Part shown: piece after piece, positions 4,173 through 42,238 of the stretch
How positions within the stretch are numbered: the stretch's first letter is position 1
How the letters are laid out: every line of letters begins with the position of its first letter
Assembly (NCBI GenBank): GCA_011391695.1
Contig: JAABQB010000011.1
Location: 1 to 64,000, forward strand
Origin: Desulfobacteraceae bacterium
Lineage (GTDB): Bacteria; Desulfobacterota; Desulfobacteria; Desulfobacterales; RPRI01
Direction: 5' to 3'
DNA: 64,000 nt
Translations under genes and position numbers: made by a program
Notes under the pieces: model-generated
What the model was told of the DNA's origin: nothing
The model's input: only the letters and a program-made list of their open reading frames with translations
Databases searched by the model: none

Positions 4173-5327
4173 CTACATATTGGCTTCAAAAGATGCCGGA
4201 GTATCAAAGCCGTTTCTTAAGCATATATATTCCCGAACGGCCTCTTTGCAGTCATTTGCAACCATCTCTTTTATCATTTCCTCAAAGGAGATTTCAGGAG
4301 TCCATCCTAATTCTTTTTTTGCCTTCGAGGGGTCTCCCAGAAGAGTTTCAACTTCGGTTGGCCTGAAATAACGGGGATCAACCAGAACGACCGCCTGTCC
4401 TTTCCGAAGCCTGTTTGCGGGAAAATTTAATTCTTTTCTCCCGGGAATAATTACCGGTTCATAATTCGCAACAATACCCCTTTCTTTTTCGCCGCTTCCC
4501 TTCCACTTTAGCCTGATGCCTGCTGCCCCGAAAGCGTGCTCACAAAGTTCCCGCACCGAATGCTGGACCCCGGTTGCAATAACGTAATCGTCAGGTTTCT
4601 TCTGCTGCAAAATAAGCCATTGAGCCCGGACAAAATCCCTTGCATCACCCCAGTCACGAAGTGCATTCAGATTTCCCAGATAGAGGTTATTTTCAAGGCC
4701 AAGAGCAATTCGTGCGGCAGCCCGGGTTATTTTACGTGAAACGAATGTTTCACCTCTTTGGGGGGACTCATGGTTAAAAAGTATGCCGTTGCATCCGAAT
4801 ATGCCATATGCTTCCCTGTAATTTATTGTACACCAGTAAGCATAGAGTTTTGCGCATGCGTAAGGTGAGCGGGGATAAAACGGGGTGCGTTCTGATTGGG
4901 GAACCTCCTGTACTTTACCGTACAGCTCGCTGGTTGAGGCCTGATAAAAACGTGTTTTCTTTTCAAGGCCAAGAATTCTTATGGCCTCAAGAATTCTGAG
5001 TGTGCCGAGAGCATCAGTGTTTGCCGTATATTCAGGCGATTCGAAGGATACCTGAACATGGCTCTGAGCCGCAAGATTATATATTTCGTCAGGCCGGATT
5101 TCCTGGATAATTCGGATCAGATTTGTAGCATCCGTCATATCGCCGTAATGCATGAAAAATCTTACATACTGCTCATGTGGATCCTTATACAGGTGGTCGA
5201 CGCGTTGAGTGTTAAATGAAGATGCCCTCCGCTTGATCCCGTGGACAATATACCCCTTGCCTAAGAGCAATTCTGCAAGATAACTTCCGTCCTGCCCGGT
5301 AATCCCCGTAATTAGTGCGGTTTTCAT
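4173..5327 (-). CDS. gmd: GDP-mannose 4,6-dehydratase
   Basis: A 384-aa short-chain dehydrogenase/reductase that dehydrates GDP-D-mannose to GDP-4-keto-6-deoxy-D-mannose, the first step to GDP-L-fucose. It starts with the family-typical [20 protein letters not shown]. It also has [15 protein letters not shown], the active-site [26 protein letters not shown] carrying the YxxxK dyad, and [20 protein letters not shown] 15 bases upstream is in frame. ATG 5327 is chosen because it gives the canonical N-terminus and is preceded by AGGAG, though only 3 bases away. The neighbour fcl completes the pathway. The C-terminal residues run up to a heptamer repeat array. Confidence 0.93.
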
Positions 5328-26154: not shown

Positions 26155-29100
26155 ATGAATAAAAATCATGCAATAGCGGTTGTTGGAATGGCAGGCCTGT
26201 TTCCGGGAGCATTGAATATTAGTTGCTTCTGGCATAATATTGTCAATAAAATTGGCACCACATCTGAAATACCCGAAGACAGATGGAAAGTCCATTCCGC
26301 TTTTATGTATGAAAAAAGTTTCATGCCGGATAAAGCCTATTCCAAAAAGGCCTGTCTGATAAATAATTTCAGATTCGATCCTGCCGGAATTGACATAGAC
26401 AAAAACATATTAAAAGAGCTTGACCCTCTTTATCAGTTTGTTCTTCATACCGGCAGGGAAGCTTTCTTATCCTGCAACACAAAAAACCTTGACAGAAAAA
26501 AAACCGGCGTCGCGCTTGCCGCAATATCTCTTCCTACCGACTCATCTTCCGGGCTGGCACGAAGAGTCATCGGCCGGTCATACCGGGAAAACCTATCCGG
26601 CAAATCTTTTTCTTCTGATGACATGTATATAAGTACAGCAGAGGCTCTTTCTGCCAGGGTAACAAGCCTCCCGGCCGCAATCCTGGCAGCGGGTCTTGGC
26701 TTAGGCGGCGGCAGCTTCACCCTGGATGCAGCATGCGCCTCTTCCATATACGCTGTCAAGCTTGCTTGTGACGAACTTAATTCACATAACGCGGATGCCA
26801 TGCTGGCAGGAGGCGTATCAAGGCCCGACTGCTTGTACACGCAGGTTGGATTCAGCCAGCTGCGTGCTCTTTCTCCTTCGGGGCGCTGCGCGCCTTTTGA
26901 TCAAAAAGCCGACGGCCTTGTAGTTGGAGAAGGCGCCGGGATTCTTGTTTTAAAAAGGCTTGAAGATGCCATAAGAGATAATGACACAATATACGGCCTC
27001 ATCGGCGGCATAGGACTTTCAAATGATATTGGCGGAAATCTTCTCTCTCCCGATTCGGAAGGTCAGGTGCGTGCCATGAGAATGGCCTATGAATCTGCGG
27101 GATGGAATCCATGGGATGTTGATCTTATCGAATGCCATGGTACCGGCACCCTTGCTGGAGACGCAACTGAACTTGCGAGCCTTGTGGAGTTATGGGGAAA
27201 ATCCGGCTGGTCCGAAGCCCAATGCCCGATCGGTTCCGTGAAATCGATGATCGGCCACCTGCTCACAGGCGCCGGCGCTGCAGGAATGATAAAAACGCTT
27301 CTTGCAATAAAAAACAAAACTCTCCCGCCATCTCTTAATTTCACAAAAGCGCCTGAAAAAAGCCCGATCCACGGCAGCCCTTTCAGGGTTCAGACGGATA
27401 CCGGAAAGTGGGAAAGAAAAAGTGAAAACACACCATTTCGCGCGGCAGTTAGCGCTTTCGGATTTGGCGGAATTAACGGCCATCTTCTTTTTGAAGAATG
27501 GCTCCCCGGTAAAAATTACCCGCATTTGAAATCTTCCGGAACCGGAAGAAACATGGCCCGGACAGCAGATGAGAAATTGACGCCCCCCGTTGCAATTGTG
27601 GGAATGGATGCTCATTTTGGAACCTTTACATCCCTTAAGGAATTTCAGGAAGGAATATTCAACGGTGATTCAGCCATATGCAAAAGGCCGGAAGATCGGT
27701 GGAAAGGATGTGATGAACTTGCAAATAAGTTTCTTCACGGCCGCGGTTCATGGGGAGCTTATATAAAAAAGATTGAATTTGATTCCGGCTCGTTTCATAT
27801 TCCGCCTATTGAAATTCCCGATATTCTCATTCAACATCTGCTTATTCTTAACGTGGCGGCAAAGGCAATGAAAGATGCTGGGCTGCCTGCAAGAAAAATC
27901 CGCAATCGAATGGGAGTTATTATCGGAGCGGACTTTGACTACGAAGCAACAAATTTTCAGCTCCGGTGGGAGCTGTTGAATTCTTCAGAGGGACAAAAAG
28001 CAAATTCAGAATTGAAAGCCGCTCAGGATGCCTGTTCCCCGCCGCTAACATCTTCAAGAACGCTCGGAGCCCTTGGCGGCATCATAGCAAGCAGGATTGC
28101 CAGGGAATTCCGTTTTGGAGGACCGAGCTTTGTAGTTTCATGTGATTCTTCATCCGGCCTTAAGGCTGTTGAAATCGGTGTAAGAGCTATCCGGCAGAAT
28201 GAAGCCGATATGATGCTTATAGGCGCTGTTGATCTATCCGGAGATATACGAAACATAATAATCTCTGACAGGTTACAGTGTTATTCAAAAAGCTGCAGGA
28301 TCGCTCCTTTCGACGTTTTATCAGAAGGAACCTTGCCCGGTGAAGGGGCTGCCGCAATAATTCTGAAAAATTTTGACCAGGCGATTAAAGATAACGACAG
28401 AATTTATGCTGTTATTGATGGTGTCGGCAAGGCATCTGCAAACGGGCACAACTCATGCCTTCCCCTGAAGGAGGCTTATTCTCTTTCTCTTGAAAGAGCA
28501 TTAAATGATGCTTCTGTTTCACCGTTTTCCATAAGCTATTTCGAAGCGCACGGCAGCGGAAATCCTTCTGAAGACACCTTCGAAATAGAAACATTAAATC
28601 AATTATTCAAAAATTCATCCGCCAGATGCGCTATAGGTTCTGTCAAACCAAATATCGGTAATGCCGGGTCAGCATCAGGACTTGCTTCCCTTATAAAGAC
28701 CTGCCTTTGTCTGTACCACGAAATCATACCGCCGCTGGTAAATTTTTCGGAACCGGCCATCGCCATTGAAAACAATCTCCACTTTCCCGTATCACCTCAA
28801 TTCTGGTACAGGAACAGGATAGATGGTCCCCGTAAGGCATGCATATCTTCAATATCAAATGACGGGAACTGTATGCATGTTGTTATTAAAGGCAATGAAT
28901 ACATAGCCCCGACCGCCGTTTCTGAAAAAATTTCCATGGAAAGAAAAAACCCGCTGGGACAAAGACATTTCTGTCTTTTCATTGTTGACGGCGAGACAAA
29001 GAATGAACTCATGGACGGCATTAATTCCCTTTCCGGTAAAATAATTAATAGAAACGATATAATCGAATGCGCATATAATTGGTTGCAGCATAAAAAACCC

Positions 29101-32100
29101 GACAGTAAAAAAAAATATGCCCTGTCTATTGCAGCAGGAGATATCAGTTATCTTCAACAATGGATAAAAGATGCAAAATATATTGTTGAAACAGACATTC
29201 ATAAAAAAATGAACGGGCCGGGTGGAATCTACTATTCACCGAACCCGCTCGGACAAAAACATAAAACGGCTTTTGTTTTCCCCGGTTCCGGAAATCACTA
29301 TCTTGGAATGGGCAGAGGAACAGGAGTCTATTTTCCGGATATACTGCGGAAAATGGATGAGAGGACAGAAAGACTTCAAACACAAATTGTTCCGGAATGC
29401 TTTGTTCCATGGCGAAGCTCATGGGGAAAAGGGTGGGAAAATGACGCCAGTCAAAAAATTGCCGCCAGTCCCTTGAACATGATTTTCGGACAAGTCGCAT
29501 ACAGCGGGATTATCGCCAAACTTCTGATGAGTTTCGGGATTAAGCCTTCTGCTGTCATAGGATACAGCCTCGGAGAGTCTGCCGGCAATTTTGCAATGAA
29601 TGTATGGCCTGATTACGGTGAAATGCTCGACAGAATGCTCAAAACAGAATTGTTTACTTCAGAACTTGCAGGCACATACAATTCCGCCCGTAAGGCATGG
29701 AATATATCTGCCAGTGAAAACATAGACTGGTGTGCCGCGGTAGTAAATCGCCCGGCAAAGAATGTAATCAAAACCCTCGCAGCTTTCCCATATGTAAGGC
29801 TTTTGATAGTCAACACACCCGATGAATGTGTAATAGGAGGAGTGAAAAAACAGGTTGAGGCCTTAGTAAGAGAGCTTTCATGCGAAGCGGTTTATCTTGA
29901 GGGTGTTGTGACGGTGCACTGCGATGCCGTCAACCCAGTAGCCGATAAATATGAAGAGCTTCACCTTTTCCCGGTCAATCCGCCTGAAGGAATTACCTTT
30001 TACAGTTGTGCACTTGGACGTTCATATAAAATAACAAGCGCAAATGCCGCTTCTTCCATATTGAAACAGGGGATTCACGGCTTTGACTTCACTGCAACGA
30101 TAGAACAGGCTTATAAAGATGGGATACGCATTTTTATTGAAACCGGACCTCTTTCTTCATGCACAAGAATGATAGACAGGATTCTTCAGGACAGACCTCA
30201 CTTTGCCGCTTCCGCATCTGCCAAAGGCGAGGATGAATATATTACATTCATTAAATTCATGGGATCCCTGATAGGTGAAAGAATTCCTGTCGATACAGAT
30301 AGGATTTACAAAGAATTCTCTCCGGGAATAAATGTTTTATCTGAAAATAAAGGCCGCGGGTTGGTACTGTCTACCGGAGGCAAGGCTCCTGCGCCTTCAG
30401 TGATGAATATAGAACAAGATGATGATAAGGAACCTAATAAGACAAATGCAACCGAGGAAAACAGAATTGCCCCTGCTTTAGACAAAAAGATTCATAAAAA
30501 TACCGGTCATACCGCGACAGATTATATCGGATTGATAAAGTCCATCAAAAACAACATTGAATCAACCATCAGAGCGCATGAAAAATATCTTGATTTTTCA
30601 AATGAGCTGGCAAAAAATTTTGCTGATACTTTTGCTTTCCAGATAAACCTTCTTGAAAAGATGACTTCAGGCAGCAGATCAACTGAAAATAAGGAAGCCC
30701 TCTTCCCCCGCGAGATGTGCATGGAATTTGCCGCAGGATCGGTAGCAAAAGTGCTTGGGAATGAATTTGCAGAGGTTGACAATTACAGGGCAAGAGTACG
30801 TCTTCCCGATGAACCGCTGATGCTTGTTGACAGAATAATTTCAATAGAGGGAGAAAAGTGTTCTCTGGGATCAGGATGTATTGTAACCGAGCACGATGTT
30901 CTGCCCGGAGCATGGTATCTTGACGGTGGACACGCACCGGTATGTATCTCTGTTGAAGCAGGACAGGCAGATCTTTTTCTCTCTTCTTACCTCGGAATCG
31001 ATCTTGCGGTAAAAGGTGAAAGAACTTACAGGCTGCTTGATGCAACGGTAAAGTTTCACCGCGGTTTGCCTGAACCCGGTGATGTAATCCGCTACGTAAT
31101 AAATATAGAAAGGTTCGTGAAACAAAAAGAGACTTATCTTTTCTTTTTTAATTTTGAGGGGTATATCGGGGAAACCCATCTTATAAGCATGTATAACGGA
31201 TGTGCCGGATTTTTTACCGAAGAGGAAGTTAATAATTCAGGGGGAATTATCCTTACGGAAAAAGATGCTCTCCCGGCTGAAGGCAAAAAGCCTTCTGACT
31301 GGAAAGAGCTGGTACCTTTTCACGCGGAAAGTTTTGATGAAAATACATTGGACCTCCTCAGGCATGGGAACCTTTCAGGGTGTTTCGGGCCATCTTTCGA
31401 AGGAATCAAGCTGACAGATTCCCTGTGGCTTCCCGGCGGAAGAATGAAACTGATTGACAGAATTCTTTCTGTAGATTCCGAAGGCGGACGTTTCGGCCTC
31501 GGCATCGTAAGGGCTGAAGCCGATATCCATCCCGACGACTGGTTCCTTACCTGCCATTTCATGGATGACATGGTAATGCCGGGAACTCTAATGTATGAAT
31601 GCTGCTCGCATGCCTTGCGGGTCTTTATTATGAGAATGGGCTGGGTCACGGGAAAATCCGGCGTGTATCTCGAACCAGTTGCCGGAATAGAAAGCATTTT
31701 GAAATGCCGCGGGCCGGTAACCCCGAAAACACGCAAAGTGATATACGAAGTTGAAATAAAGGAGATCGGATACAATCCGGAACCTTATGTGATTGCCGAT
31801 GCTCACATTTATGCGGACGGACACCGGATAGTCTTTTTCAAAGATATGTCGATGAAAATGACAGGAATATCCCGTAATGAAATCGAGTATCAATGGAAAT
31901 CAAAAAAGATAATTACAAGAAGAAAGAAAGCTCTTTTCGACCATGACAGGATACTTGCATTTTCAATCGGAAAGCCCTCGGAGGCTTTCGGAGATAAATA
32001 CAAGATATTCGATTCAGAAAGGCGTATAGCAAGACTGCCCGGGCCGCCGTATCTTTTTATGGACAGGATTACGTCCGTTGAGCCTGAAGCATGGGCGCTG

Positions 32101-33090
32101 AAGCCGGGAGGCTGGATAGAGGCAGAATATGACGTCCCGCATGATGCATGGTATTTCAAAGCAAACCGTTCACCGTCGATGCCTTTTGCAGTCCTTCTTG
32201 AATTGGCGCTTCAACCGTGCGGCTGGCTTGCCGCGTATATGGGCTCAGCGCTGAAAAGCAGCAATGATTTAAAATTCAGAAATCTTGGCGGAAATGCTGT
32301 ACAGCACTCTGAAGTTATGCCGGATTCGGGTACTCTGACAATGCGGGCGCGCGCAAAAAAAATCTCCGGGGCGGGAGATATGATCATTGAAGAATTTGAG
32401 ATGCAGGTTCTTCAGACAGGCAGGATCATCTATGAAGGAGATACCGTATTCGGCTTTTTCTCTGATGAGGCCCTTTCAAAACAGGTTGGAATCCGTGAAA
32501 TAGATAAAGAGATATACAAATTATCACCGGAAGAAATTAATACCTGTACTTCACATACATTCCCCGATGAAGCGCCTCTGTCACCCGAAGACAGCACTAT
32601 TGAGCCGTCACCATTACTGGGAATGCCGTCAAAGGCTTTTCGTATGATAGATGCTATCGACATATTTGCTGAAAAAGGCGGTCCTTCAGGACTCGGTTAT
32701 GTCCGGGGAATAAAAAATGTTAATCCGGAGGAATGGTTTTTCAAGGCCCATTTTTTTCAGGATCCTGTTTGTCCCGGCTCTCTCGGAATAGAATCTTTCC
32801 TGCAGACAATAAAGTTCATTGCAATCAAACGATGGGAACATCTTGCTGAAACGCACAGATTTTCTCCGGTTACCGGAAAATCTCATAACTGGATTTACCG
32901 CGGACAGATAATTCCGGAAAACAGAAGGGTTGAAGTTGAAACAATTGTAACCGAAATCAGGGATGAACCCATACCCTGCATAATGGCAGACGGTTATTTG
33001 AAGGTTGACGGGCTGTACATATACAAAATGAAGAACTTTGGTATAAAACTGATTCCCGGTCGTCACTCCCGTGAAAACGGGAGTCCATAA
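26155..33090 (+). CDS. pfaC: PfaC-like megasynthase with fused AT and four hot-dog domains (KS-CLF-AT-DHx4)
   Basis: A 2311-aa iterative synthase. Ketosynthase (residues 5-440; active Cys 194 in DAACASSIYA). Second ketosynthase-like domain (480-870), where the active position reads SCDSSSG, Ser 665 by alignment, so it is a chain-length-factor-type subunit. PfaB-like acyltransferase (1030-1350; FVFPGSGNHY, nucleophile Ser 1138 in GYSLGES). Then four FabA-like hot-dog units starting near 1548, 1763, 1959 and 2157. The second and fourth keep the catalytic pattern CHFMDDMVMPG and AHFFQDPVCPG. Such dehydratase pairs install the cis double bonds in polyunsaturated chains. The last ten residues come from a dispersed repeat. 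oleA starts 17 bases later. Confidence 0.9.
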   Translation: MNKNHAIAVVGMAGLFPGALNISCFWHNIVNKIGTTSEIPEDRWKVHSAFMYEKSFMPDKAYSKKACLINNFRFDPAGIDIDKNILKELDPLYQFVLHTGREAFLSCNTKNLDRKKTGVALAAISLPTDSSSGLARRVIGRSYRENLSGKSFSSDDMYISTAEALSARVTSLPAAILAAGLGLGGGSFTLDAACASSIYAVKLACDELNSHNADAMLAGGVSRPDCLYTQVGFSQLRALSPSGRCAPFDQKADGLVVGEGAGILVLKRLEDAIRDNDTIYGLIGGIGLSNDIGGNLLSPDSEGQVRAMRMAYESAGWNPWDVDLIECHGTGTLAGDATELASLVELWGKSGWSEAQCPIGSVKSMIGHLLTGAGAAGMIKTLLAIKNKTLPPSLNFTKAPEKSPIHGSPFRVQTDTGKWERKSENTPFRAAVSAFGFGGINGHLLFEEWLPGKNYPHLKSSGTGRNMARTADEKLTPPVAIVGMDAHFGTFTSLKEFQEGIFNGDSAICKRPEDRWKGCDELANKFLHGRGSWGAYIKKIEFDSGSFHIPPIEIPDILIQHLLILNVAAKAMKDAGLPARKIRNRMGVIIGADFDYEATNFQLRWELLNSSEGQKANSELKAAQDACSPPLTSSRTLGALGGIIASRIAREFRFGGPSFVVSCDSSSGLKAVEIGVRAIRQNEADMMLIGAVDLSGDIRNIIISDRLQCYSKSCRIAPFDVLSEGTLPGEGAAAIILKNFDQAIKDNDRIYAVIDGVGKASANGHNSCLPLKEAYSLSLERALNDASVSPFSISYFEAHGSGNPSEDTFEIETLNQLFKNSSARCAIGSVKPNIGNAGSASGLASLIKTCLCLYHEIIPPLVNFSEPAIAIENNLHFPVSPQFWYRNRIDGPRKACISSISNDGNCMHVVIKGNEYIAPTAVSEKISMERKNPLGQRHFCLFIVDGETKNELMDGINSLSGKIINRNDIIECAYNWLQHKKPDSKKKYALSIAAGDISYLQQWIKDAKYIVETDIHKKMNGPGGIYYSPNPLGQKHKTAFVFPGSGNHYLGMGRGTGVYFPDILRKMDERTERLQTQIVPECFVPWRSSWGKGWENDASQKIAASPLNMIFGQVAYSGIIAKLLMSFGIKPSAVIGYSLGESAGNFAMNVWPDYGEMLDRMLKTELFTSELAGTYNSARKAWNISASENIDWCAAVVNRPAKNVIKTLAAFPYVRLLIVNTPDECVIGGVKKQVEALVRELSCEAVYLEGVVTVHCDAVNPVADKYEELHLFPVNPPEGITFYSCALGRSYKITSANAASSILKQGIHGFDFTATIEQAYKDGIRIFIETGPLSSCTRMIDRILQDRPHFAASASAKGEDEYITFIKFMGSLIGERIPVDTDRIYKEFSPGINVLSENKGRGLVLSTGGKAPAPSVMNIEQDDDKEPNKTNATEENRIAPALDKKIHKNTGHTATDYIGLIKSIKNNIESTIRAHEKYLDFSNELAKNFADTFAFQINLLEKMTSGSRSTENKEALFPREMCMEFAAGSVAKVLGNEFAEVDNYRARVRLPDEPLMLVDRIISIEGEKCSLGSGCIVTEHDVLPGAWYLDGGHAPVCISVEAGQADLFLSSYLGIDLAVKGERTYRLLDATVKFHRGLPEPGDVIRYVINIERFVKQKETYLFFFNFEGYIGETHLISMYNGCAGFFTEEEVNNSGGIILTEKDALPAEGKKPSDWKELVPFHAESFDENTLDLLRHGNLSGCFGPSFEGIKLTDSLWLPGGRMKLIDRILSVDSEGGRFGLGIVRAEADIHPDDWFLTCHFMDDMVMPGTLMYECCSHALRVFIMRMGWVTGKSGVYLEPVAGIESILKCRGPVTPKTRKVIYEVEIKEIGYNPEPYVIADAHIYADGHRIVFFKDMSMKMTGISRNEIEYQWKSKKIITRRKKALFDHDRILAFSIGKPSEAFGDKYKIFDSERRIARLPGPPYLFMDRITSVEPEAWALKPGGWIEAEYDVPHDAWYFKANRSPSMPFAVLLELALQPCGWLAAYMGSALKSSNDLKFRNLGGNAVQHSEVMPDSGTLTMRARAKKISGAGDMIIEEFEMQVLQTGRIIYEGDTVFGFFSDEALSKQVGIREIDKEIYKLSPEEINTCTSHTFPDEAPLSPEDSTIEPSPLLGMPSKAFRMIDAIDIFAEKGGPSGLGYVRGIKNVNPEEWFFKAHFFQDPVCPGSLGIESFLQTIKFIAIKRWEHLAETHRFSPVTGKSHNWIYRGQIIPENRRVEVETIVTEIRDEPIPCIMADGYLKVDGLYIYKMKNFGIKLIPGRHSRENGSP
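33061..33089. repeat. Dispersed palindromic repeat supplying the PfaC stop codon
   Basis: CACTCCCGTG-AAAA-CGGGAGTCC is a near-palindrome of the same type as at 5833-5860 inside MITE-like copy 1. Read in frame it encodes GRHSRENGSP, and the TAA immediately follows. These residues look like read-through into an inserted repeat rather than native protein sequence. Confidence 0.6.
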
Positions 33091-33107
33091 TTCGGAGTTT
33101 AAATTAA

Positions 33108-34148
33108 ATGCTCTATTCAAAAGTTTATATTGAATCGCTCGGGTATGAGCTTGCGCCTAATGTAATAACGTCGGATGACATCGAAAAGCGCCTTGAACCA
33201 CTGTATGATCACCTCCATTTTCAAAAAGGCCAGCTTGAAATAATTACAGGCATACGCGAGAGACGCTTCTGGGATGAAGGGTATACAATGCATGAGGGAG
33301 CAACATCGGCCGGCCGCAAGGCAATAAACGACTCTAATATAGACATAAAGGATATCGGCATGCTTGTTTATGGCGGAGTATGCAGGGATAATTTGGAACC
33401 TGCAACAGCCTGTGCAGTTGCAGATGGTCTCGGGCTTTCACGCGAAACCCATATTTTTGATGTTTCAAATGCATGCCTTGGAGTACTCAACGGCATGATA
33501 CAAATTGCAAATGCCATAGAACTTGGCCAGATCAAGGCCGGTCTTGTTGTGTCATGCGAATCCGCCCGTCAGATAGTTGATTATACAATAAAACGTCTCC
33601 TTAAAGAAAAAAACATGGATATATTCAGAAAAACCATTGCAACCCTTACAGGCGGATCGGGTGCAGCAGCCGTGCTTCTGGCGGATGGATCCATATCAAA
33701 AAGGGAACACCGTCTTATTGGGGGCATGATACGGAGCGCTACCGAGCATCATAAACTCTGCAGATGGGGCCCTGATACCGGAATACCTGCAAGCGGTCTT
33801 CACATAATGGAAACAGATTCTGTAGGTGTTCTTAAAAACGGGGTGGTTCTCGGCATAGAGACTTTTAAGGCTTTTAAGAAAGAACTCTCATGGCCGGCGG
33901 ATAAACCGGACAAGATAATCTGCCATCAGGTTGGTTCAGCGCATCAGAAAACTATTCTGGAATCAATCGGGATACCGAAAGAAAAAGATTTTACCACTTA
34001 TCAGTATCTTGGAAATATAGGGACTGTATCTCTTCCCTTGACGGCTGCCATTGCTTATGAACGTGAATTTCTGAAAAATGGTGATCTTGTCGGATTCCTT
34101 GGAATAGGAAGCGGGCTCAACTGCCTGATGCTTGGTATAGAATGGTAA
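33108..34148 (+). CDS. oleA: OleA, head-to-head acyl-CoA condensing enzyme
   Basis: A 346-aa thiolase-fold enzyme of the OleA group (KAS III relatives). It joins two fatty acyl thioesters to a 2-alkyl-3-keto acid, the first step of long-chain olefin synthesis. The catalytic Cys is in FDVSNACLGVLNGM (about residue 127). The KAS III His and Asn are in ICHQVGSAHQK (about 268) and GNIGTVSLPLT (about 303). The early REFR-like GIRERRFWDEG segment is characteristic of OleA. It sits directly behind the PfaC-like gene and is followed by oleB, oleC and oleD in order, which strongly supports the assignment over an ordinary KAS III. Confidence 0.92.
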   Translation: MLYSKVYIESLGYELAPNVITSDDIEKRLEPLYDHLHFQKGQLEIITGIRERRFWDEGYTMHEGATSAGRKAINDSNIDIKDIGMLVYGGVCRDNLEPATACAVADGLGLSRETHIFDVSNACLGVLNGMIQIANAIELGQIKAGLVVSCESARQIVDYTIKRLLKEKNMDIFRKTIATLTGGSGAAAVLLADGSISKREHRLIGGMIRSATEHHKLCRWGPDTGIPASGLHIMETDSVGVLKNGVVLGIETFKAFKKELSWPADKPDKIICHQVGSAHQKTILESIGIPKEKDFTTYQYLGNIGTVSLPLTAAIAYEREFLKNGDLVGFLGIGSGLNCLMLGIEW

Positions 34149-34167
34149 GTAAATACGGGATGGATAA

Positions 34168-35082
34168 GTGGCAAAAGAAAAACATATCGATATTTCCGGT
34201 ATAAAACATCTTTACCCGTTTAAGTCCAATTATATTGAGATAAGAGGGATAAAATACCATTATATCGACGAGGGGTCTGGAAATCCTGTTCTGATGATTC
34301 ACGGGAACCCTACCTGGTCTTTCTATTTCCGCTCCCTTATAAAGGATTTGTCACCCAATTTCCGCACAATAGCGCCTGATCACATAGGCTGCGGCCTTTC
34401 CGGAAAACCTGATGAATCCGATTATGATTTCAGGTTAAAAAGCCGTATCGAAGATATCGATTCATTTCTCGGTCATCTTAAATTAAACGGCAAGATAACT
34501 CTTATTCTTCATGACTGGGGCGGAATGATAGGCATGGCATACGCGGTAAAAAATCCTGAGAAGATAAACTCTGTTGTTATTATGAATACTGCGGCCTTCT
34601 TCCCGCTCGGTGAAAAAATAAAGATACCGTTGAGACTGAGAGTGATACGGAACATCGGCCCTTTCGCAAACATCACCGTTCTCGGATTCAACCTGTTTGC
34701 AAAAGCGGCTCTTTATATGGCATCATACAGGGGCCTTTCGAAGGATGCAAAAAAGGGGCTGATTGCTCCATACAATTCCTGGAGGAATCGAATTGCAACC
34801 TTAAAATTTGTTCAGGATATTCCTCTTGAAAAGAATGATCCGAGCTATGATACAGTAAAATATGTTGATGATAGCCTCTACATGCTTGCGCATATCCCTT
34901 TGCTCATCTGCTGGGGGAAGCATGATTTTGTCTTTACGGAAAACTATCTTGCCGAATGGCAGAAACGCTTTCCAAAAGCCGAAACTCATATTTTTGAAAA
35001 TGCAGGACATTACGTGCTTGAAGACGAACCAGAAAAAACAGCTTCTGTTATTAAGGATTTCTTGAACAGACATATGCTTTAA
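34168..35082 (+). CDS. oleB: OleB, beta-lactone decarboxylase (alpha/beta hydrolase)
   Basis: A 304-aa alpha/beta hydrolase of the haloalkane-dehalogenase-like OleB family, which decarboxylates the cis-beta-lactone made by OleC to the final cis-olefin. Oxyanion segment MIHGNPTWSFYFRSL (about residues 42-56). The nucleophile is Asp in LHDWGGMIGMAYA (about 114), as expected for OleB rather than a serine esterase. The general acid region CWGKHDFVFTE and the C-terminal NAGHYVLEDEPE supply Asp and His. It starts with GTG after GGATGGATAA. Spacing from oleA is 19 bases, to oleC 4-16 bases; clearly one operon. Confidence 0.9.
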   Translation: MAKEKHIDISGIKHLYPFKSNYIEIRGIKYHYIDEGSGNPVLMIHGNPTWSFYFRSLIKDLSPNFRTIAPDHIGCGLSGKPDESDYDFRLKSRIEDIDSFLGHLKLNGKITLILHDWGGMIGMAYAVKNPEKINSVVIMNTAAFFPLGEKIKIPLRLRVIRNIGPFANITVLGFNLFAKAALYMASYRGLSKDAKKGLIAPYNSWRNRIATLKFVQDIPLEKNDPSYDTVKYVDDSLYMLAHIPLLICWGKHDFVFTENYLAEWQKRFPKAETHIFENAGHYVLEDEPEKTASVIKDFLNRHML

Positions 35083-35098
35083 TGCAGTGAAGGATGCC

Positions 35099-36772
35099 AT
35101 GCAACAGTCAAAAGATGATTTTGTAAATGTATCATCCCATCTTGAAAGAATGGCGGAAATCCAGCCGTATAAGAGAGCTGTTGTCTATCCTGTTGCACGG
35201 GACAATAACGGCCATATAGGATATGCCCATCTTACTTTTCATCAGCTCGCCGCCGAATCTGACCGGATAGCCCACGGGCTTGATAAGGCTGGAATAAGTA
35301 AGGGAATAAGAACCGTCCTTATGGTAAAACCCGGAGCTGATTTTTTTTCACTTGTTTTTGCCCTCTTTAAAATCGGCGCGGTCCCCGTAGTGGTCGATCC
35401 CGGCATGGGCATAAAGAGGATGCTTTCCTGCCTTGAATCAACCAGGCCCGAAGCCTTTATCGGGATACCGCTTGCCCATGTGTTCAGAACATTATTCCCG
35501 CATTTCTTCAAAACAGTCAAAGTTTGTATAACTGTGGGACGGCGCCTCTTCTGGGGAGGACATACTCTTGATATAATAAAGAGGATAAACTTTACAGAAC
35601 CGTATCCGGCAGCTGAAACAAGAAAAGACGATACCGCGGCCGTACTCTTTACTACCGGCAGCACCGGGCCTGCAAAAGGCGCGATTTACACCCACGGCAA
35701 TTTCGACGCCCAGGTCAGGCAGATTAAAGAGCATTTCAGTATAGGAGCAGATGAAATAGATCTTCCGACATTTCCCCTCTTTGCCCTTTTTGATCCGGCC
35801 ATAGGAATGACTGCCGTTATTCCGGATATGGATCCCACGAAACCGGCCCTGGTCAACCCGGAAAAAATAATCGAAGCGGTTATCAACCAGGGCGTAACAA
35901 ACATGTTCGCCTCCCCTGCCCTTTTAAACCGTGTCGGAAGATACGGCAAAAGCAGAGGAATAATACTTCCCTCATTAAAAAGAGTCGTATCCGCAGGAGC
36001 CCCTGTTTCGCTTTCAAATATAAAATGCTTTTCCTCCATGCTCACCGGTGAAGCTGAAATACATACCCCATACGGCGCCACGGAGGCAGTTCCGATAATA
36101 TCGATCGGAAGCAGAGAGATTCTGTCCGAAACAGGCAGGTTGAGCGAGCAGGGTCTTGGAATCTGCGTGGGAACTCCTTTAAACGGAATAGATGTTAAGA
36201 TAATAAAAATTATCGATGACCCGGTAAATGGATGGTCTGATGATATTATTACAGCAGACGGCGAGGCCGGTGAAATAACGGTCAAAGGCGAACTTGTTAC
36301 AAAAAATTACTTCGAAAATCCTGAAGCCGACGCTCTTTCAAAAATAAAAGACGGAAACAGCACATGGCACAGGATGGGAGATCTCGGGAGAAAAGATGAA
36401 AAAGGGAGAATATGGTTTCTCGGCCGGAAAAGCCACCGTGTAATAACTTCTAACGGGACTCTTTTTACGATTCCGTGCGAGGCGATATTCAATAACCATC
36501 CGGAGGTCTTCAGAAGCGCCCTTGTAGGAATCGGGAAAAAACCGAATCAGGTTCCGGTCATATGCATTGAGCCTGAACATGAAGTAAATTTCGATAAGGA
36601 AAAAATTGAAAAGGAACTTCTTGTGATTGCCGGTAAACATGAACTGACAAAAAATATAAAGACTATCCTTTTTCACAAATCATTCCCGGTTGACATCAGG
36701 CATAACTCCAAGATCTTCAGGGAAAAGCTCGCTGCATGGGCTGAAAAACAGATTAAAAGGCGGGACGGATAA
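35099..36772 (+). CDS. oleC: OleC, beta-lactone synthetase (AMP-forming ligase family)
   Basis: A 557-aa member of the ANL adenylating superfamily. OleC uses ATP to close a 2-alkyl-3-hydroxy acid into a beta-lactone. The P-loop-like AMP motif is AAVLFTTGSTGPAKGAIYTHGNFDAQ (around residues 180-205). HTPYGATEAVPI (about 320) and MGDLGRKDEKGRIWFLGRKSHRV (about 422-445) are the other core motifs. It also has PMVDPGMG-like VVVDPGMGIKRM. Start: GTG 35087 has no ribosome site, whereas ATG 35099 has GAAGGA 4 bases before it and is preferred. Gene order confirms OleC over a generic acyl-CoA synthetase. Confidence 0.9.
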   Translation: MQQSKDDFVNVSSHLERMAEIQPYKRAVVYPVARDNNGHIGYAHLTFHQLAAESDRIAHGLDKAGISKGIRTVLMVKPGADFFSLVFALFKIGAVPVVVDPGMGIKRMLSCLESTRPEAFIGIPLAHVFRTLFPHFFKTVKVCITVGRRLFWGGHTLDIIKRINFTEPYPAAETRKDDTAAVLFTTGSTGPAKGAIYTHGNFDAQVRQIKEHFSIGADEIDLPTFPLFALFDPAIGMTAVIPDMDPTKPALVNPEKIIEAVINQGVTNMFASPALLNRVGRYGKSRGIILPSLKRVVSAGAPVSLSNIKCFSSMLTGEAEIHTPYGATEAVPIISIGSREILSETGRLSEQGLGICVGTPLNGIDVKIIKIIDDPVNGWSDDIITADGEAGEITVKGELVTKNYFENPEADALSKIKDGNSTWHRMGDLGRKDEKGRIWFLGRKSHRVITSNGTLFTIPCEAIFNNHPEVFRSALVGIGKKPNQVPVICIEPEHEVNFDKEKIEKELLVIAGKHELTKNIKTILFHKSFPVDIRHNSKIFREKLAAWAEKQIKRRDG

Positions 36773-36778
36773 TAATTC

Positions 36779-37801
36779 ATGTCTGTTAAATCTCCACGAA
36801 AGGTTCTTGTTACCGGAGGAGGCGGATTCCTTGGATATGCAATTTCAAAGCTTCTTTCAGAAAGAGGAGACAATGTATCAAGTTTTTCAAGAAGATTTTA
36901 TCCAGAACTCGAACCGTTTAATGTAAAGCAGATACTGGGTGACATAAGCGATAAAAAAGCCGTTGAAAATGCCTGTGAAGGAAAAGAGATCGTTTTCCAT
37001 ACAGCTGCAAAACCGGGGGTATGGGGCGATTACAGGGAATATTACAGAACCAACGTGGAAGGAACAATAAATGTCATTGAAGGATGCCGGAGACACGATG
37101 TTTCCTGCCTGGTCCACACAAGTTCTCCGAGTGTTGTTTTCGATGGGAATGACATGGAGGGTGTCGATGAATCTGTTCCGTATTCGAAGGTTTTCCACAC
37201 CCATTATCCTAAGACAAAAGCGATAGCGGAACAGTGTGTCTTAAAAGCTTCCATGTCAGGTCTCAAAACAATCATATTGAGACCGCATCTCATATGGGGC
37301 CCGCGCGACAAGCATTTTGTCCCAAGGATAATTGAAAGGGCGAAACGGCTCCGTGTAGTCGGAAGCGGGAAAAACATGGTTGACACGATTTATATAGACA
37401 ACGCGGCATATGCACATCTCCTTGCAGCCGATGCCCTTGAAAAAAATAACGCCCTTTCGGGAAAAATATACTTTATCAGCCAGGGAAAACCTGAGCCCTT
37501 GTGGGAGATGGTAAACAATATTTTAAAAGCCGGAGGACTTCCACCGGTTACCCGCACTGTACATCCGAAAGTTGCCGCGCTTGCGGGAACTTTTCTTGAA
37601 ACTTTATACGGGATGCTTAATATCGACAGCGAACCACCCATGACAAAATTTGTTGCAAAAGAGCTTGCAACTTCCCACTGGTTCGATATAACCGCTGCGA
37701 AAAGGGATCTCGGATATGCTCCGATAGTCTCAACCGAAGAAGGACTCGGGTACCTTGAAGAATGGCTGAAAAATTCCGCTATAAAAGGAACAGAAATATG
37801 A
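36779..37801 (+). CDS. oleD: OleD, NAD(P)H-dependent 2-alkyl-3-ketoacid reductase
   Basis: A 340-aa extended short-chain dehydrogenase. OleD reduces the OleA product to the 2-alkyl-3-hydroxy acid that OleC uses. Rossmann motif VLVTGGGGFLGYAISKLL (residues 9-26), HTAAKPGVWGDY (about 76), active-site HTSSPSVVFDG (about 113), YPKTKAIAEQ carrying the YxxxK dyad (about 143), and LRPHLIWGPRDKHFVPRII. Length and motifs match OleD from gammaproteobacteria. It starts 6 bases after oleC stops and overlaps the PocR gene by 4 bases, so the sensor gene is translationally coupled to the hydrocarbon genes. Confidence 0.9.
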   Translation: MSVKSPRKVLVTGGGGFLGYAISKLLSERGDNVSSFSRRFYPELEPFNVKQILGDISDKKAVENACEGKEIVFHTAAKPGVWGDYREYYRTNVEGTINVIEGCRRHDVSCLVHTSSPSVVFDGNDMEGVDESVPYSKVFHTHYPKTKAIAEQCVLKASMSGLKTIILRPHLIWGPRDKHFVPRIIERAKRLRVVGSGKNMVDTIYIDNAAYAHLLAADALEKNNALSGKIYFISQGKPEPLWEMVNNILKAGGLPPVTRTVHPKVAALAGTFLETLYGMLNIDSEPPMTKFVAKELATSHWFDITAAKRDLGYAPIVSTEEGLGYLEEWLKNSAIKGTEI

Positions 37802-38298
37802 AACTTACGGATATTTTACCTCTTGAAAAATGGATTGAACTCGAAAAGGAAATATACAAAAGATCGGGGCTTAACTCCAACGTTTTTGATGTTAAGGGAA
37901 TCAGGATAAGCGATTTTCAGAAATGGCCCAACGACCTCTGCCCGACCATCAAGGCTAACGACAAGGGCCAAAGCTTCATATGCGCCGTTGCACATATGAA
38001 CCTGGCTGCCCAGGCCAGGCAGACGGGAAAAGCCGTTATAGAAGAGTGTGATGCAGGATTGTTCAAGGTCGTTTACCCTGTATTCGCCCAAGGTGAATTT
38101 CTCGGCGTTGTCGCCGGCTGCGGGCTGCTGCTTGACGATGGAGCGACCGACTCGTTTCTAATCAATAAGATAACCGATATCGATGAGGAAACAGTTGAAG
38201 AGCTTTCAAATGGCATCGAAAGGAGAAGCAGATCTGAGATAGAAAAATTGGCGAATTATATGAAAGAAGAGGTTGACAAAATAACAGGCAATTTATAA
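37798..38298 (+). CDS. Stand-alone PocR-domain sensor protein
   Basis: A 166-aa soluble protein consisting of one PocR ligand-binding domain. Seen: WPNDLCPTIKAND, ICAVAHMNLAAQARQTGKAVIEECDAGLFKVVYPVF, then GEFLGVVAGCG. The Cys pairs and the CxAGLxxxxxPV segment are the family pattern. PocR is a PAS-like domain predicted to sense small hydrocarbon derivatives and is usually fused to a kinase or AraC output; here no output domain is present. ATG 37798 overlaps the oleD stop (ATGA) and has AAAGGAA upstream, so the 12 upstream in-frame residues are not native. It may report on hydrocarbon or intermediate levels, which is inference from position. Confidence 0.8.
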   Translation: MKLTDILPLEKWIELEKEIYKRSGLNSNVFDVKGIRISDFQKWPNDLCPTIKANDKGQSFICAVAHMNLAAQARQTGKAVIEECDAGLFKVVYPVFAQGEFLGVVAGCGLLLDDGATDSFLINKITDIDEETVEELSNGIERRSRSEIEKLANYMKEEVDKITGNL

Positions 38299-38359: not shown

Positions 38360-39418
38360 ATGGACTCTTCAAATGTTCTTGTCATCGGCGGCGGGATCGC
38401 TGGGCTTACGACAGCCCATGAACTTTCAAAACTTGGCGTAAAAGTCGAGCTTGTTGAAAAAGAGCCTTTTCTCGGAGGTCATGCTATCCAGTTTACCTGC
38501 AAGGCCATCGAAAGCTGCGCAAAATGCGGCGCATGCATGGCGGAAGAGAAACTCAATAATGTAATTCATAATGAAAATATCAAAATACTTACAGGCGCAA
38601 ACTTAAACAGAATATCGAAAAACGACCGCTTTCATTATAATATTCAATTAAATCCTGATGATAAAAATCAGTCAAAATGTACAGGCTATTCCTCCTCTGC
38701 TGATGCTGTTATCATGGCAACCGGATTCGAGCCGTTTGATCCTGTGAAAAAACCTTACGGATACAGGGTTTTTAAAAATGTAATAACAAACCTCGATCTT
38801 GAAAGGATGTTAAAAACAAACGGCATTGCCTTAAAGCCTTCGGACGGCATGCCGCCTTCTAAAATTGCTTTTATACAGTGCGTTGGAAGCAGGGATTCAA
38901 AACTCAACCACCTTTGGTGTTCCAAAATATGCTGTGCATCGGCCCTTCGCATGGCACATGTCATAAAATCAAGAAAGCCCGAAACATCCGTAACCTTCTT
39001 TTACATAGATATCCAGGGTTCAGGAAAAGATTTTGAAGCGCTTTACCAGAAGGCAAAAGAAGATTTTCAGATGATAAGGGCAATTCCCGGGGATATTTAT
39101 AAAACGGAAGACGACTGGCTTAAAATAAACTACTTTGATAACCTGTCAAAAGCGAGCATCGAGGAAGTTTACGACATGGTTGTTCTCTCTGTAGCAATGA
39201 TTCCTGGAAGCAAAACAAAAGAGCTTGCGGAAATACTCGGCATAATTCCATGTGATACAGGTTTTGTCGGATCATGTAAAAACAACGGCATTGCAGGGTC
39301 AGGCGGAGTTTTTGTTGCCGGTACGGCGGGAGGCCCTTTATCAATAGCTGAAAGTATCACCCATGCGGTAAAAACGGCATGGGATGTCGCGAAATATTTA
39401 AAAACCAGGGGGCGCTGA
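38360..39418 (+). CDS. hdrA: HdrA-like FAD/iron-sulfur subunit (short form)
   Basis: A 352-aa flavoprotein of the heterodisulfide reductase A family. FAD-binding VLVIGGGIAGLTTAHELSKLG (residues 6-26) with EKEPFLGGHA; a Cys-rich cluster-binding stretch CKAIESCAKCGACMAEEK (about 48-65); CVGSRDSKLNHLWCSKICCASALRMA (about 175-200, the HdrA core cluster region); C-terminal second FAD contact GGVFVAGTAGGPLSIAESI. It is about half the length of a classical HdrA; the next gene continues the HdrA theme. HdrA proteins bifurcate or confurcate electrons among ferredoxin, NADH/H2-type donors and a disulfide-type acceptor. It lies 61 bases after the PocR gene, so it may share the Pfa-Ole transcript. Confidence 0.87.
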   Translation: MDSSNVLVIGGGIAGLTTAHELSKLGVKVELVEKEPFLGGHAIQFTCKAIESCAKCGACMAEEKLNNVIHNENIKILTGANLNRISKNDRFHYNIQLNPDDKNQSKCTGYSSSADAVIMATGFEPFDPVKKPYGYRVFKNVITNLDLERMLKTNGIALKPSDGMPPSKIAFIQCVGSRDSKLNHLWCSKICCASALRMAHVIKSRKPETSVTFFYIDIQGSGKDFEALYQKAKEDFQMIRAIPGDIYKTEDDWLKINYFDNLSKASIEEVYDMVVLSVAMIPGSKTKELAEILGIIPCDTGFVGSCKNNGIAGSGGVFVAGTAGGPLSIAESITHAVKTAWDVAKYLKTRGR

Positions 39419-39425
39419 TTCGGAG

Positions 39426-41018
39426 ATGAAAACTCTTATTATTGGAAGCAGTCCTTGTGCTGTAAATAGTGCCAAAGAGCTTCTTGAAAGCGGAAACGAA
39501 ATCCTCATCTCATTAAATAAGAATGAAGATTCATCTGCAATTGACGAATTCAAGGCCGCAGGCATTGATCCGGCGTTTATATTAACGGATACAAACATCC
39601 TTTCCTGCCGGGGATGTGCCGGGGATTTTACGATTCTCATGGCAAGCGGCGGGAAAACCGTTTCAAAAAAAATATCCGGTGTCATTATAGCCGAAGAATA
39701 CGAGAAAAAGCCCAACTTTGCAGCTTACGGTTTAAAACCAGCCCCCGGAGTTTTGCCCCTCTCCTTTCTTACCGGAACAGGAATTTATGGAATAAATGCC
39801 TCTAAAAAGATTCCGCATGCCGGCAAAATAGCATTCCTTACAGGCCTTGGATATGAAAGCAATCCGGTTATAGCAGAAGAAGTTATGCTCGCTTCCCTGA
39901 AGTTCCAGACTGACTTAAATCTGCAAACCTACATATTGACCGGCAATCTGAAGGTTGCGGGTAACGGCCTCGAAAAATTATACAGGGAAACAAAAACAGC
40001 CGGAACAGTATATTTTAAATTCACAGATACCAGTCCCCGGATTCTGCAGGATAATGAAGGAAAAGTTACGATTGAACTGGTTGACGAGATAACCCGGCTT
40101 AATTTCAGAATTACGCCGGCGCTTACCGTTGTCGATGAAATCATATCTCCGTCCGCTTATATGAAAGAGCTTGCAGCGGTTTTCGGACTTCATACCGGGG
40201 CAGACGGATTCCTTCAATCCGGAAATCTGCATCGAACAGGCATATATACAAACAGGAAAGGAATTTTTGTTGCAGGGCCCTCAAGAAGCATTCTGAATGT
40301 CGCAGGTAATATAACTGATTCCGCTAATGCGGCAATTCTTACTTCCCGCATACCGGATGATAATATAAAACAGGAAGCAAAAGCCGAAATAAAAAGCGGC
40401 TCATGCATCAGATGCCTTACCTGCTACAGGTGCTGCCCTTACCGGGCTATTGACCTTGATATCAGGCCTTCCGTCATGCCTGACGCGTGCGAAGGATGCG
40501 GGATCTGTTTTGCGGAATGCCCGAGAGGCGCCATTTCCTTGAATTTTCCGGACAACAGAAATGTAGCAGATGCAATCAGGCGGGTTTCAGACATCGGCAA
40601 AACATCCCCGCTTGTCATTGCTTTCTGCTGCGGCCGTTCGGCAGGCCGTGCAAAAGAACTTGCCATCTGCATGGGATATAGACTGCCTCAGAACCTGAAG
40701 GTAATAGAGGTCCCTTGTTCCGGGTTTGTCTCCATGGAATACGTACTATCAGCCTTTCAGAATAACGCCGATGGCGTGCTTGTACTCACATGTCACGCGG
40801 GTAACTGCCATTCGGAAGACGGAAATATTTTTGCCCGGCGGAGGGTCGAACAGTTAAAGGAAACTTTTTCACAAATGAATTTTGAGAAAGAGCGCCTTGA
40901 GATCAAAACACTTGCCTCAAACATGGGATATGAATTTGCGCAGATAACCAATATGTTTGAAAATACTTTAAAGGTTCTTGGTTCAGGCAATTTAAAAATA
41001 CTGAAGGTGCAAAAATGA
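39426..41018 (+). CDS. HdrA-like / ferredoxin / MvhD fusion
   Basis: A 530-aa protein in three parts. Residues 1-310 are a degenerate HdrA-type flavin fold: LIIGSSPCAVNSAKELLESG, and GIYTNRKGIFVAGPSRSIL near 270-290. About 326-372 is a two-cluster ferredoxin, CIRCLTCYRCCPYRAI and CEGCGICFAECPRGAI. About 393-510 is an MvhD/FlpD domain with FCCGRSAGRAKELA, VPCSGFVSMEYVL and LTCHAGNCHSEDG, which binds a 2Fe-2S cluster. MvhD domains pass electrons from a hydrogenase, formate dehydrogenase or NADH module into HdrA. It starts 7 bases after hdrA and overlaps the next gene by 4 bases. The external electron donor is not encoded nearby. Confidence 0.88.
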   Translation: MKTLIIGSSPCAVNSAKELLESGNEILISLNKNEDSSAIDEFKAAGIDPAFILTDTNILSCRGCAGDFTILMASGGKTVSKKISGVIIAEEYEKKPNFAAYGLKPAPGVLPLSFLTGTGIYGINASKKIPHAGKIAFLTGLGYESNPVIAEEVMLASLKFQTDLNLQTYILTGNLKVAGNGLEKLYRETKTAGTVYFKFTDTSPRILQDNEGKVTIELVDEITRLNFRITPALTVVDEIISPSAYMKELAAVFGLHTGADGFLQSGNLHRTGIYTNRKGIFVAGPSRSILNVAGNITDSANAAILTSRIPDDNIKQEAKAEIKSGSCIRCLTCYRCCPYRAIDLDIRPSVMPDACEGCGICFAECPRGAISLNFPDNRNVADAIRRVSDIGKTSPLVIAFCCGRSAGRAKELAICMGYRLPQNLKVIEVPCSGFVSMEYVLSAFQNNADGVLVLTCHAGNCHSEDGNIFARRRVEQLKETFSQMNFEKERLEIKTLASNMGYEFAQITNMFENTLKVLGSGNLKILKVQK

Positions 41019-42238
41019 ATCAAACTGAAAAGACAATCGGAATCGGGGAATTAAATCACGGCAGATTTAAAACATTACCTTTTTCTCATGATTTCTGCAT
41101 AACATGCGGACTCTGCTCAAGTTCCTGCCCTGCTTCCGGCATAGACGGATTCGATCCGAGAATGCTTGTCAGGATGGTGGGATTAGGCCTTGAAGATGAT
41201 GTTGTAAATGCAAGGTGGCCGTGGATATGCACCATGTGCGGCAAATGCGAGTATGTCTGCCCCATGGATATCCGGATTCCGGATCTCGTAAGAAGCATAA
41301 GGGGTTTGCGCGAAAAGGCAAAAATTCCGGGGATACTTCAGAAGGGTCTTGAAGCGGCTCTTAAAACCGGAAATAATCTTGCACTTCCGAAAGAAGACTT
41401 CATTTATATAGTTGAGGATGTTGCAGGTGAGATTGCTGAAGAGCCGGGATTTGAGGGTTTTAAAGTTCCGATAGACAAAAAAGGCGCCAACCTTTTATCG
41501 ACAATTCACAACAAGCTGGTAAATACACATACAGAGGACTTGAAATACTGGTGGAAAATCTTTCATGCCGCTAAAGAGGACTGGACAATAACCTCGGAGA
41601 ACTGGGAGGGAACAAGCTGGGGTCTTTTTACCGGAGACGATGAAGCCGTTAAAGTAATGGCCGGAAGAATCATGGAGCAGATGAAGAGGCTGGAAATAAA
41701 AAATCTCCTCTGGCCCGAGTGAGGGCACGCATATCTTGCGACCAGGTCTGGTCTGCAAAAATGGTATCCCAAAGAGCTTGAAAAGATCGGAACATATACC
41801 GTCTTTGATCTTCTCATAAAATACATAAAGGAAGGAAGAATCAGGCTTGATAGGTCAAGATTCAAGGTTCCTGCCACATATCATGATCCCTGCAATTACG
41901 GCAGGAAAGCCGAAAAGATATTTGGTCACGGTTTTTTTGACGAACCGAGATGGATACTTGATCAGTGCATGGAAAACTGGATCGATCTTTACCCCGCGAA
42001 AGAGAACCAGTTGTGCTGCGGAGGAGGAGGCGGTACACTCACAACCGGTTACAATGCTGAACGGATACTTTACGGCAAAAGAAAAATCGATCAGATAAAG
42101 GCTGCCGGCGTCGAAATGGTGGTTGTCCCCTGCCATAGCTGCCACGGACAACTGAACAGCATCAAAAAAGAATACGGCATGGAGAATCTTACCGTCAAAT
42201 ACCTCTGGGAGCTTGTCGCTGACTGCCTGGTCTTATAA
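41015..42238 (+). CDS. HdrC-HdrB (HdrD-like) selenoprotein with in-frame UGA
   Basis: Read as one 407-aa protein with selenocysteine at residue 236 (TGA 41720-41722). HdrC part: CITCGLCSSSC and CTMCGKCEYVCPMDI, two 4Fe-4S clusters (residues 28-85). HdrB-like CCG part: the UGA falls in LLWPE-U-GHAY, where relatives read PECGHAY. HDPC (Cys 293), CCGGGGG (Cys 334-335) and PCHSC (Cys 373 and 376) complete one CCG set. Sequence after TGA stays in frame, without a start of its own, to TAA 42238. A hairpin with AGGUCU loop follows the TGA. The protein would reduce a disulfide-type acceptor with electrons from HdrA. A plain nonsense mutation is much less likely. Confidence 0.85.
41736..41758 (+). promoter_or_regulatory. 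Bacterial SECIS hairpin
   Basis: Starting 13 bases after the UGA, TTGC-GACC (41736-41743) pairs with GGTC-T-GCAA (41750-41758), with one bulged U, leaving AGGTCT (41744-41749) as the apical loop. The E. coli fdhF SECIS presents the same AGGUCU loop to SelB, 17 bases from its UGA; here the distance is 21 bases. The bulged U is on the 3' side here, unlike fdhF. Confidence 0.8.

Follow-up and report, generated by a model that had tools for sequence, protein, structure and literature searches.

Selenocysteine (Sec) has been reported before in iron-sulfur proteins of the kind considered here. Zhang and Gladyshev (2006) listed Syntrophobacter, Desulfotalea and Desulfovibrio, of the Deltaproteobacteria, as carrying an 'Fe-S oxidoreductase (GlpC)' with Sec, noted Cys-to-Sec events, and found the genes in operons that also contain hdrA and frhD (PMC1794560). 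A 2026 review lists an 'Fe-S oxidoreductase-like protein, PTHR43551' with the motif UGH (PMC13188914), and Strittmatter et al. (2009) found a Sec-containing HdrD4 in Desulfobacterium autotrophicum HRM2, HdrD being a protein homologous to HdrCB (PMC2702500). Hdr/Mvh complexes in sulfate reducers are discussed in PMC5109826 and PMC2702500. The gene that we consider here, Sec-HdrCB, lies in a stretch of 64,000 nucleotides from a Desulfobacteraceae bacterium (hereafter the window) and belongs to this already described selenoprotein family of sulfate-reducing bacteria rather than representing a new kind.

Standard gene calling breaks the locus into a gene that ends at a TGA codon (41015-41722) and a small later ORF that starts at 41847 or 41969, and the truncated call is where the original prediction had begun. 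Translation, as that prediction had also claimed, runs on: the TGA at 41720-41722 is the sole interruption of the frame that opens at 41015 and closes with the TAA at 42236-42238. Reading through it yields 407 amino acids, with the UGA as residue 236 within LLWPE-U-GHAYLATR. Pfam places a 4Fe-4S dicluster domain (residues 26-86) N-terminal to the UGA and the expected HdrB-like half, a CCG domain (288-380), C-terminal to it, giving in a single chain the HdrD-type order of two HdrC-type 4Fe-4S motifs followed by an HdrB-type CCG fold. Reassignment of TGA across the whole genome can be ruled out because TGA is the true stop of the gene directly upstream (41016-41018) and of several further long ORFs in the window. 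One gene, seemingly split by a stop codon, almost certainly encodes a single Fe-S redox selenoprotein in which UGA is read as Sec. Since standard gene calling splits the gene and drops its CCG half, the electron-transfer inventory of these sulfate reducers is wrong at this point.

Features of the Sec-HdrCB locus, in window coordinates
Feature	Position	Strand	Remarks
PfaA-like synthase, OleA, OleB, OleC and OleD genes	26155..37801	+	adjacent here, outside the conserved cassette
Stand-alone PocR-domain protein that opens the cassette; true start maybe downstream of 37762	37762..38298	+	near the cassette at about 30 loci
HdrA-like FAD/NAD-binding protein (N-terminal part of HdrA)	38360..39418	+	conserved upstream
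HdrA C-terminal part with 4Fe-4S domain, fused to MvhD/FlpD	39426..41018	+	adjoins the Sec gene at most orthologous loci
Sec-containing HdrC-HdrB fusion (HdrD-type), 407 aa, one in-frame UGA	41015..42238	+	read-through, Pfam, alignment, tree
UGA almost certainly read as selenocysteine, residue 236	41720..41722	+	TGA at all 77 loci that cover it; distant homologues have Cys
Bacterial SECIS-type hairpin	41736..41758; conserved core 41740-41753 (5 bp stem, GGUC loop)	+	synonymous-shuffle test, paired changes

To survey the site we scanned one genome per species with peptide patterns placed away from residue 236, so that the search was unbiased toward any codon there, and recovered 80 orthologous loci at 49-94% identity. 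All 77 that cover the site (most of them at 61-92%) carry TGA, always in P-E-U-G-H, and none has a Cys or any other codon. The other three either end ahead of the site (L085, L097) or, in the case of L095 (6001-7088), encode an orthologue without some 34 residues around it, be it through deletion or an assembly fault. Because independent genomes show the same TGA, a sequencing error that converted TGC or TGT into TGA is excluded. With a limit of E 1e-95, 61 of 345 genomes of the phylum contain a homologue, and most of the top-ranking ones show the UGA; TGA is present down to about 50% identity, and stop-free forms are found below that. These counts, along with the family already described in Deltaproteobacteria (PMC1794560, PMC13188914; HdrD4 in PMC2702500), are at odds with the view, part of the original prediction, that Sec in an HdrC-HdrB fusion is unusual.

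In the remaining homologues the alignment puts Cys at the Sec site, variously in PECGHAY, PDCGG, NTECGH, TECGHAHR (the DsrK-like form), GECGHAFR (the HmcF/TmcB-like form) and SPHCYHTF. That homologues would have Cys at residue 236, in PECGHAY, had been foreseen, and both the alignments and a tree bear it out. The tree, computed with the Sec site masked from 88 rows (63 Sec and 25 Cys), implies at least six changes between Sec and Cys; the clade of the window's gene comprises 29 rows, all Sec, with an SH-aLRT support of 98%. With a single site that occurs in nature as both Sec and Cys, the family offers a ready comparison for the role of selenium beside a CCG-type cluster. The same genome encodes a second HdrCB homologue with an in-frame TGA, 37% identical (contig C32; L153 4062-5297, minus strand), which adjoins MetF, MetV, MvhD and response-regulator genes.

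Behind the UGA, at exactly the coordinates originally proposed (41736-41758), the window folds as TTGC-GACCA-GGUC-UGGUC-(U)-GCAA, with a GU-containing apical loop 22 nt from the UGA. The core varies among orthologues between GACCAGGUCUGGUC, GACCCGGUCGGGUC and AACCCGGUCCGGGUU; the changes affect both arms of the stem, at synonymous as well as Leu/Phe codons, and include paired exchanges of G-C for A-U and of A-U for C-G. Averaged over 73 distinct orthologues the best stem measures 4.77 bp, compared to 1.36 bp in 200 synonymous-codon shuffles, where the highest mean was 1.89. Judged by this comparison of sequences, the hairpin is retained far beyond synonymous-codon chance. Stems are short (3 bp or fewer) in seven of the 73, and Rfam returned no SECIS family match at the hairpin at either the gathering or a relaxed threshold. 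Overall, the core of the original prediction, a Sec-containing HdrC-HdrB fusion hidden by a UGA and equipped with a SECIS-type hairpin, is strongly supported.

The genome that carries the window encodes selA (628 bits, L017), selB (386 bits, L009) and selD (374 bits), all above curated cut-offs. The selD gene (L129, C39:18285-19208) contains one in-frame TGA that is read through and probably encodes a selenoprotein too. A tRNA-Sec gene was found in this 98%-complete draft neither by covariance model nor by an anticodon-stem pattern nor with same-genus DNA. A lone match to the tRNA-Sec pattern (L098) was discarded, as ARAGORN finds no tRNA there and the match looks to sit inside a coding gene. 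At two loci from the same genus (L138, L140), tRNA-Sec adjoins a peptidase-like gene, which we identified by reading the sequence; matching the draft against this tRNA-Sec and its neighbour returned short repeats only. Because the flanking peptidase gene is missing as well, the simplest reading of the absent tRNA-Sec would be that the stretch carrying selC is missing from the assembly. Of selA, selB, selC and selD, which the original prediction had named as genes to look for, three are present; selC, whose absence it had listed among its refuting conditions, is formally absent from the draft, yet the missing stretch takes in a neighbouring gene and five of nine same-genus genomes carry tRNA-Sec, at 75-76 bits. 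What the sequences show is the open frame, the conservation of the UGA, the SECIS-type hairpin and the presence of selA, selB and selD; that Sec is inserted here in the cell is what we infer.

Might the UGA nevertheless mean something else? Imagine it were a real stop, separating an HdrC gene from a CCG protein started downstream, which is how standard gene calling divides the locus. Translation of the CCG protein could then resume at 41847 at the earliest. However, the residues ahead of that point, 237-276, rank with the best-conserved of the family (G237, H238, G246, I271, G274), which argues that they are translated. Moreover, the Cys homologues are single unbroken proteins, and all 77 orthologues hold exactly TGA where a mere stop might have been TAA or TAG, neither of which occurs. 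We give a genuine stop next to no credence. The same goes for a reading of the UGA as Cys by selC*/SelB*, a system of some Deltaproteobacteria, reviewed in PMC7609411, in which a tRNA-Cys is built like tRNA-Sec. This system is present in 13 of 116 genomes of the order and in some is linked to HdrCB genes, but the genome at hand has no match to selC* and only one full-length SelB, it does have selA and selD, and ordinary tRNA-Sec is found in genomes of the same genus. Decoding as Cys is accordingly hard to credit, and Sec remains the preferred reading.

In other Desulfobacterales the selC*/selB* system, already known (PMC7609411), turns up in the vicinity of HdrCB. Six of 13 loci examined (L240, L246, L247, L248, L249 and L250) combine a gene for such a tRNA-Sec-like tRNA-Cys, in most cases with anticodon UCA, and a Cys-form HdrCB gene no more than about 11 kb away; five of these six also have a second selB-like gene. 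A tRNA shaped like tRNA-Sec with the Cys anticodon GCA (L148 1501-1592, equivalent to L118 1157-1248) precedes a Cys-form HdrCB gene by some 250 bases. The HdrCB homologue at L250 (5624-6760, minus strand), from a genome that has selC*/selB*, contains an in-frame stop at CGACS*GCP, off the Sec site, and L248 shows an in-frame TGA on the plus strand at 4832, in FVUATELAAV, in what looks like a selenocysteine peroxiredoxin.

We modelled the structure of the protein from a 61-row alignment (mean pLDDT 92.8). By VIA-align, the closest solved fold is EtfD of Mycobacterium smegmatis (9ojn; Z 26.7, rmsd 2.7, 366 residues), and the model also matches HdrB from three methanogens, at Z 20-21 over some 240 residues; amino-acid racemases (Z 6-7) were taken to reflect a common arrangement and set aside. 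Invariant in 61 homologues are C28/31/34/38, C72/75/78/82, C236, C293, C334/335 and C373/376. While HdrB is known to hold two CCG clusters, of the two CCG cysteine motifs in this protein the second alone is complete (C293-C334C335-C373-C376), and between residues 156 and 262 position 236 is the lone invariant Cys/Sec position in the 61 homologues. Because of this pattern of cysteines, we suggest that the protein holds a single CCG cluster and that Sec236 is a leftover from the ligand set of the other CCG domain. A profile alignment places C236 on the first Cys of the CPHC motif of EtfD. In the model, 236 sits between strand 230-232 and helix 237-250 and C373 between strand 368-371 and helix 374-387, a placement that would fit a pseudo-twofold relation; when the profiles of the two CCG halves are compared, the match is weak (probability 6%, E 0.006) and does not by itself establish the equivalence of Sec236 and C373.

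Upstream of the Sec gene the window encodes, in order, PfaA-like, OleA, OleB, OleC, OleD, PocR, HdrA-like and HdrA/MvhD proteins, and the TGA stop of the last overlaps the Sec-gene start by 4 bases. At most of the orthologous loci the Sec gene again has the HdrA and HdrA/MvhD genes as neighbours, and the PocR-domain gene is found near the Hdr cassette in about 30, mostly upstream; reverse-strand frames opposite the Sec gene aside, no other neighbour family is widely shared across these loci. As judged from gene order, then, the conserved unit is PocR - HdrA-like - HdrA/MvhD - Sec-HdrCB.

How might such a protein work? SelB would bind the hairpin that follows codon 236 and deliver Sec-tRNA at the UGA to give one 407-aa protein, which would combine an HdrC-like two-cluster ferredoxin part with an HdrB-like CCG part and so make an HdrD-type subunit. 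The two proteins encoded directly upstream, the HdrA-like flavoprotein and HdrA/MvhD, would join this subunit in a soluble complex; because the partner genes point there, we consider it probable that Sec-HdrCB forms the HdrD-type end subunit of such an HdrA-MvhD complex. The layout HdrA-MvhD-HdrCB is known for flavin-based electron bifurcation or confurcation. Electrons would enter via MvhD/HdrA and travel along both [4Fe-4S] clusters in the HdrC part to the single CCG cluster (C293, C334, C335, C373, C376), the direction of flow being our presumption. Sec236 would take the place of the first CxxC cysteine in a first CCG domain whose remaining ligands are lost and, facing the remaining cluster at the domain interface, may, as nucleophile or as cluster ligand, help to reduce or form a disulfide. 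Whether Sec236 has a catalytic role at all we regard as evenly balanced; among the possible roles we rank redox partner of the CCG cluster first and cluster ligand second. A disulfide-reducing site with lower potential, as originally put forward, is a reasonable guess. More specifically, Sec236 could lie in the vestigial first CCG domain directly against the remaining noncubane cluster, as its selenium ligand or selenenylsulfide partner. This last proposal is distinctly doubtful; if true, the family would constitute a natural selenium probe of disulfide breaking by noncubane clusters.

Two other views of the protein's role deserve consideration. DsrK/HmcF/TmcB-type subunits of transmembrane complexes are thought to relay electrons to another subunit, and the window's protein may likewise do no more than pass electrons on, or Sec236 may chiefly be a structural Fe-S ligand. 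Indeed, EtfD has a CxxC cysteine at the aligned position, and the DsrK- and HmcF/TmcB-like proteins of the same genome have a Cys there. However, the other cysteines of the first CCG domain are lost, making a full second cluster there unlikely, and alternation between Sec and Cys, as seen in this family, is typical of redox-active sites. On balance we find a structural or relay role rather unlikely. A further scenario derives from the position of the Sec gene behind pfa and ole genes, which had led the original prediction to see it as the end of a lipid-hydrocarbon operon: Sec-HdrCB might serve hydrocarbon or polyunsaturated lipid synthesis. The ole genes are adjacent in the window and run in the same direction, and one other orthologous locus (L029), near the window's gene on the tree, also shows OleC and OleD upstream. 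It is the only one to do so. Of 40 relatives 34 have OleC, but outside the genome at hand it lies on contigs other than that of the Sec cassette wherever both are found, bearing in mind that the contigs of the closest relatives are too short to judge linkage; one genome of the same genus (G006) has the cassette and no OleC; and most orthologous loci with full flanks contain no ole gene. The companions with which the cassette does travel are PocR, HdrA and MvhD genes. We consider a role in lipid or hydrocarbon synthesis very improbable, and because ole genes sit on other contigs in relatives and G006 lacks OleC, the hydrocarbon context appears to be local to this lineage, a local accident. A subunit of a soluble HdrA-MvhD complex is the function that we favour.

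How, finally, does Sec-HdrCB compare with the systems described to date? With the Sec GlpC family it shares Sec in U-G-H, a CCG-type Fe-S protein, hdrA and frhD/mvhD genes alongside and an origin in Deltaproteobacteria; an in-frame UGA in the U-G-H of a CCG protein and homologues with Cys, the marks of the UGH-type Sec Fe-S oxidoreductases, are both in evidence. Unlike the GlpC operons of 2006, which contain the hydrogenase genes frhG-frhA, the window cassette has no adjacent hydrogenase gene, and it comprises PocR and two HdrA-like genes with a fused MvhD. HdrD4 of D. autotrophicum HRM2, compared by description, is likewise a Sec-containing HdrC-HdrB fusion without a transmembrane segment from a Desulfobacteraceae sulfate reducer. 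The best curated neighbours over the whole length are HmcF (1e-53), TmcB (1e-49) and DsrK (9e-42), with scores that fall far short of the NCBIfam equivalog cut-offs (183/750, 169/735 and 143/400 bits, respectively); all three have Cys where the window protein has Sec and belong to transmembrane complexes, whereas the window gene has HdrA/MvhD partners. Fold and HdrC-HdrB domain order are shared with methanogen HdrB/HdrC and Mycobacterium EtfD, although EtfD is longer (1042 residues versus 407) and, in contrast to HdrB, the second CCG motif alone is complete, with no CoM/CoB pathway implied. What is new here is a survey of UGA conservation and of the SECIS element broader than we found in PMC1794560, PMC13188914 and PMC2702500.
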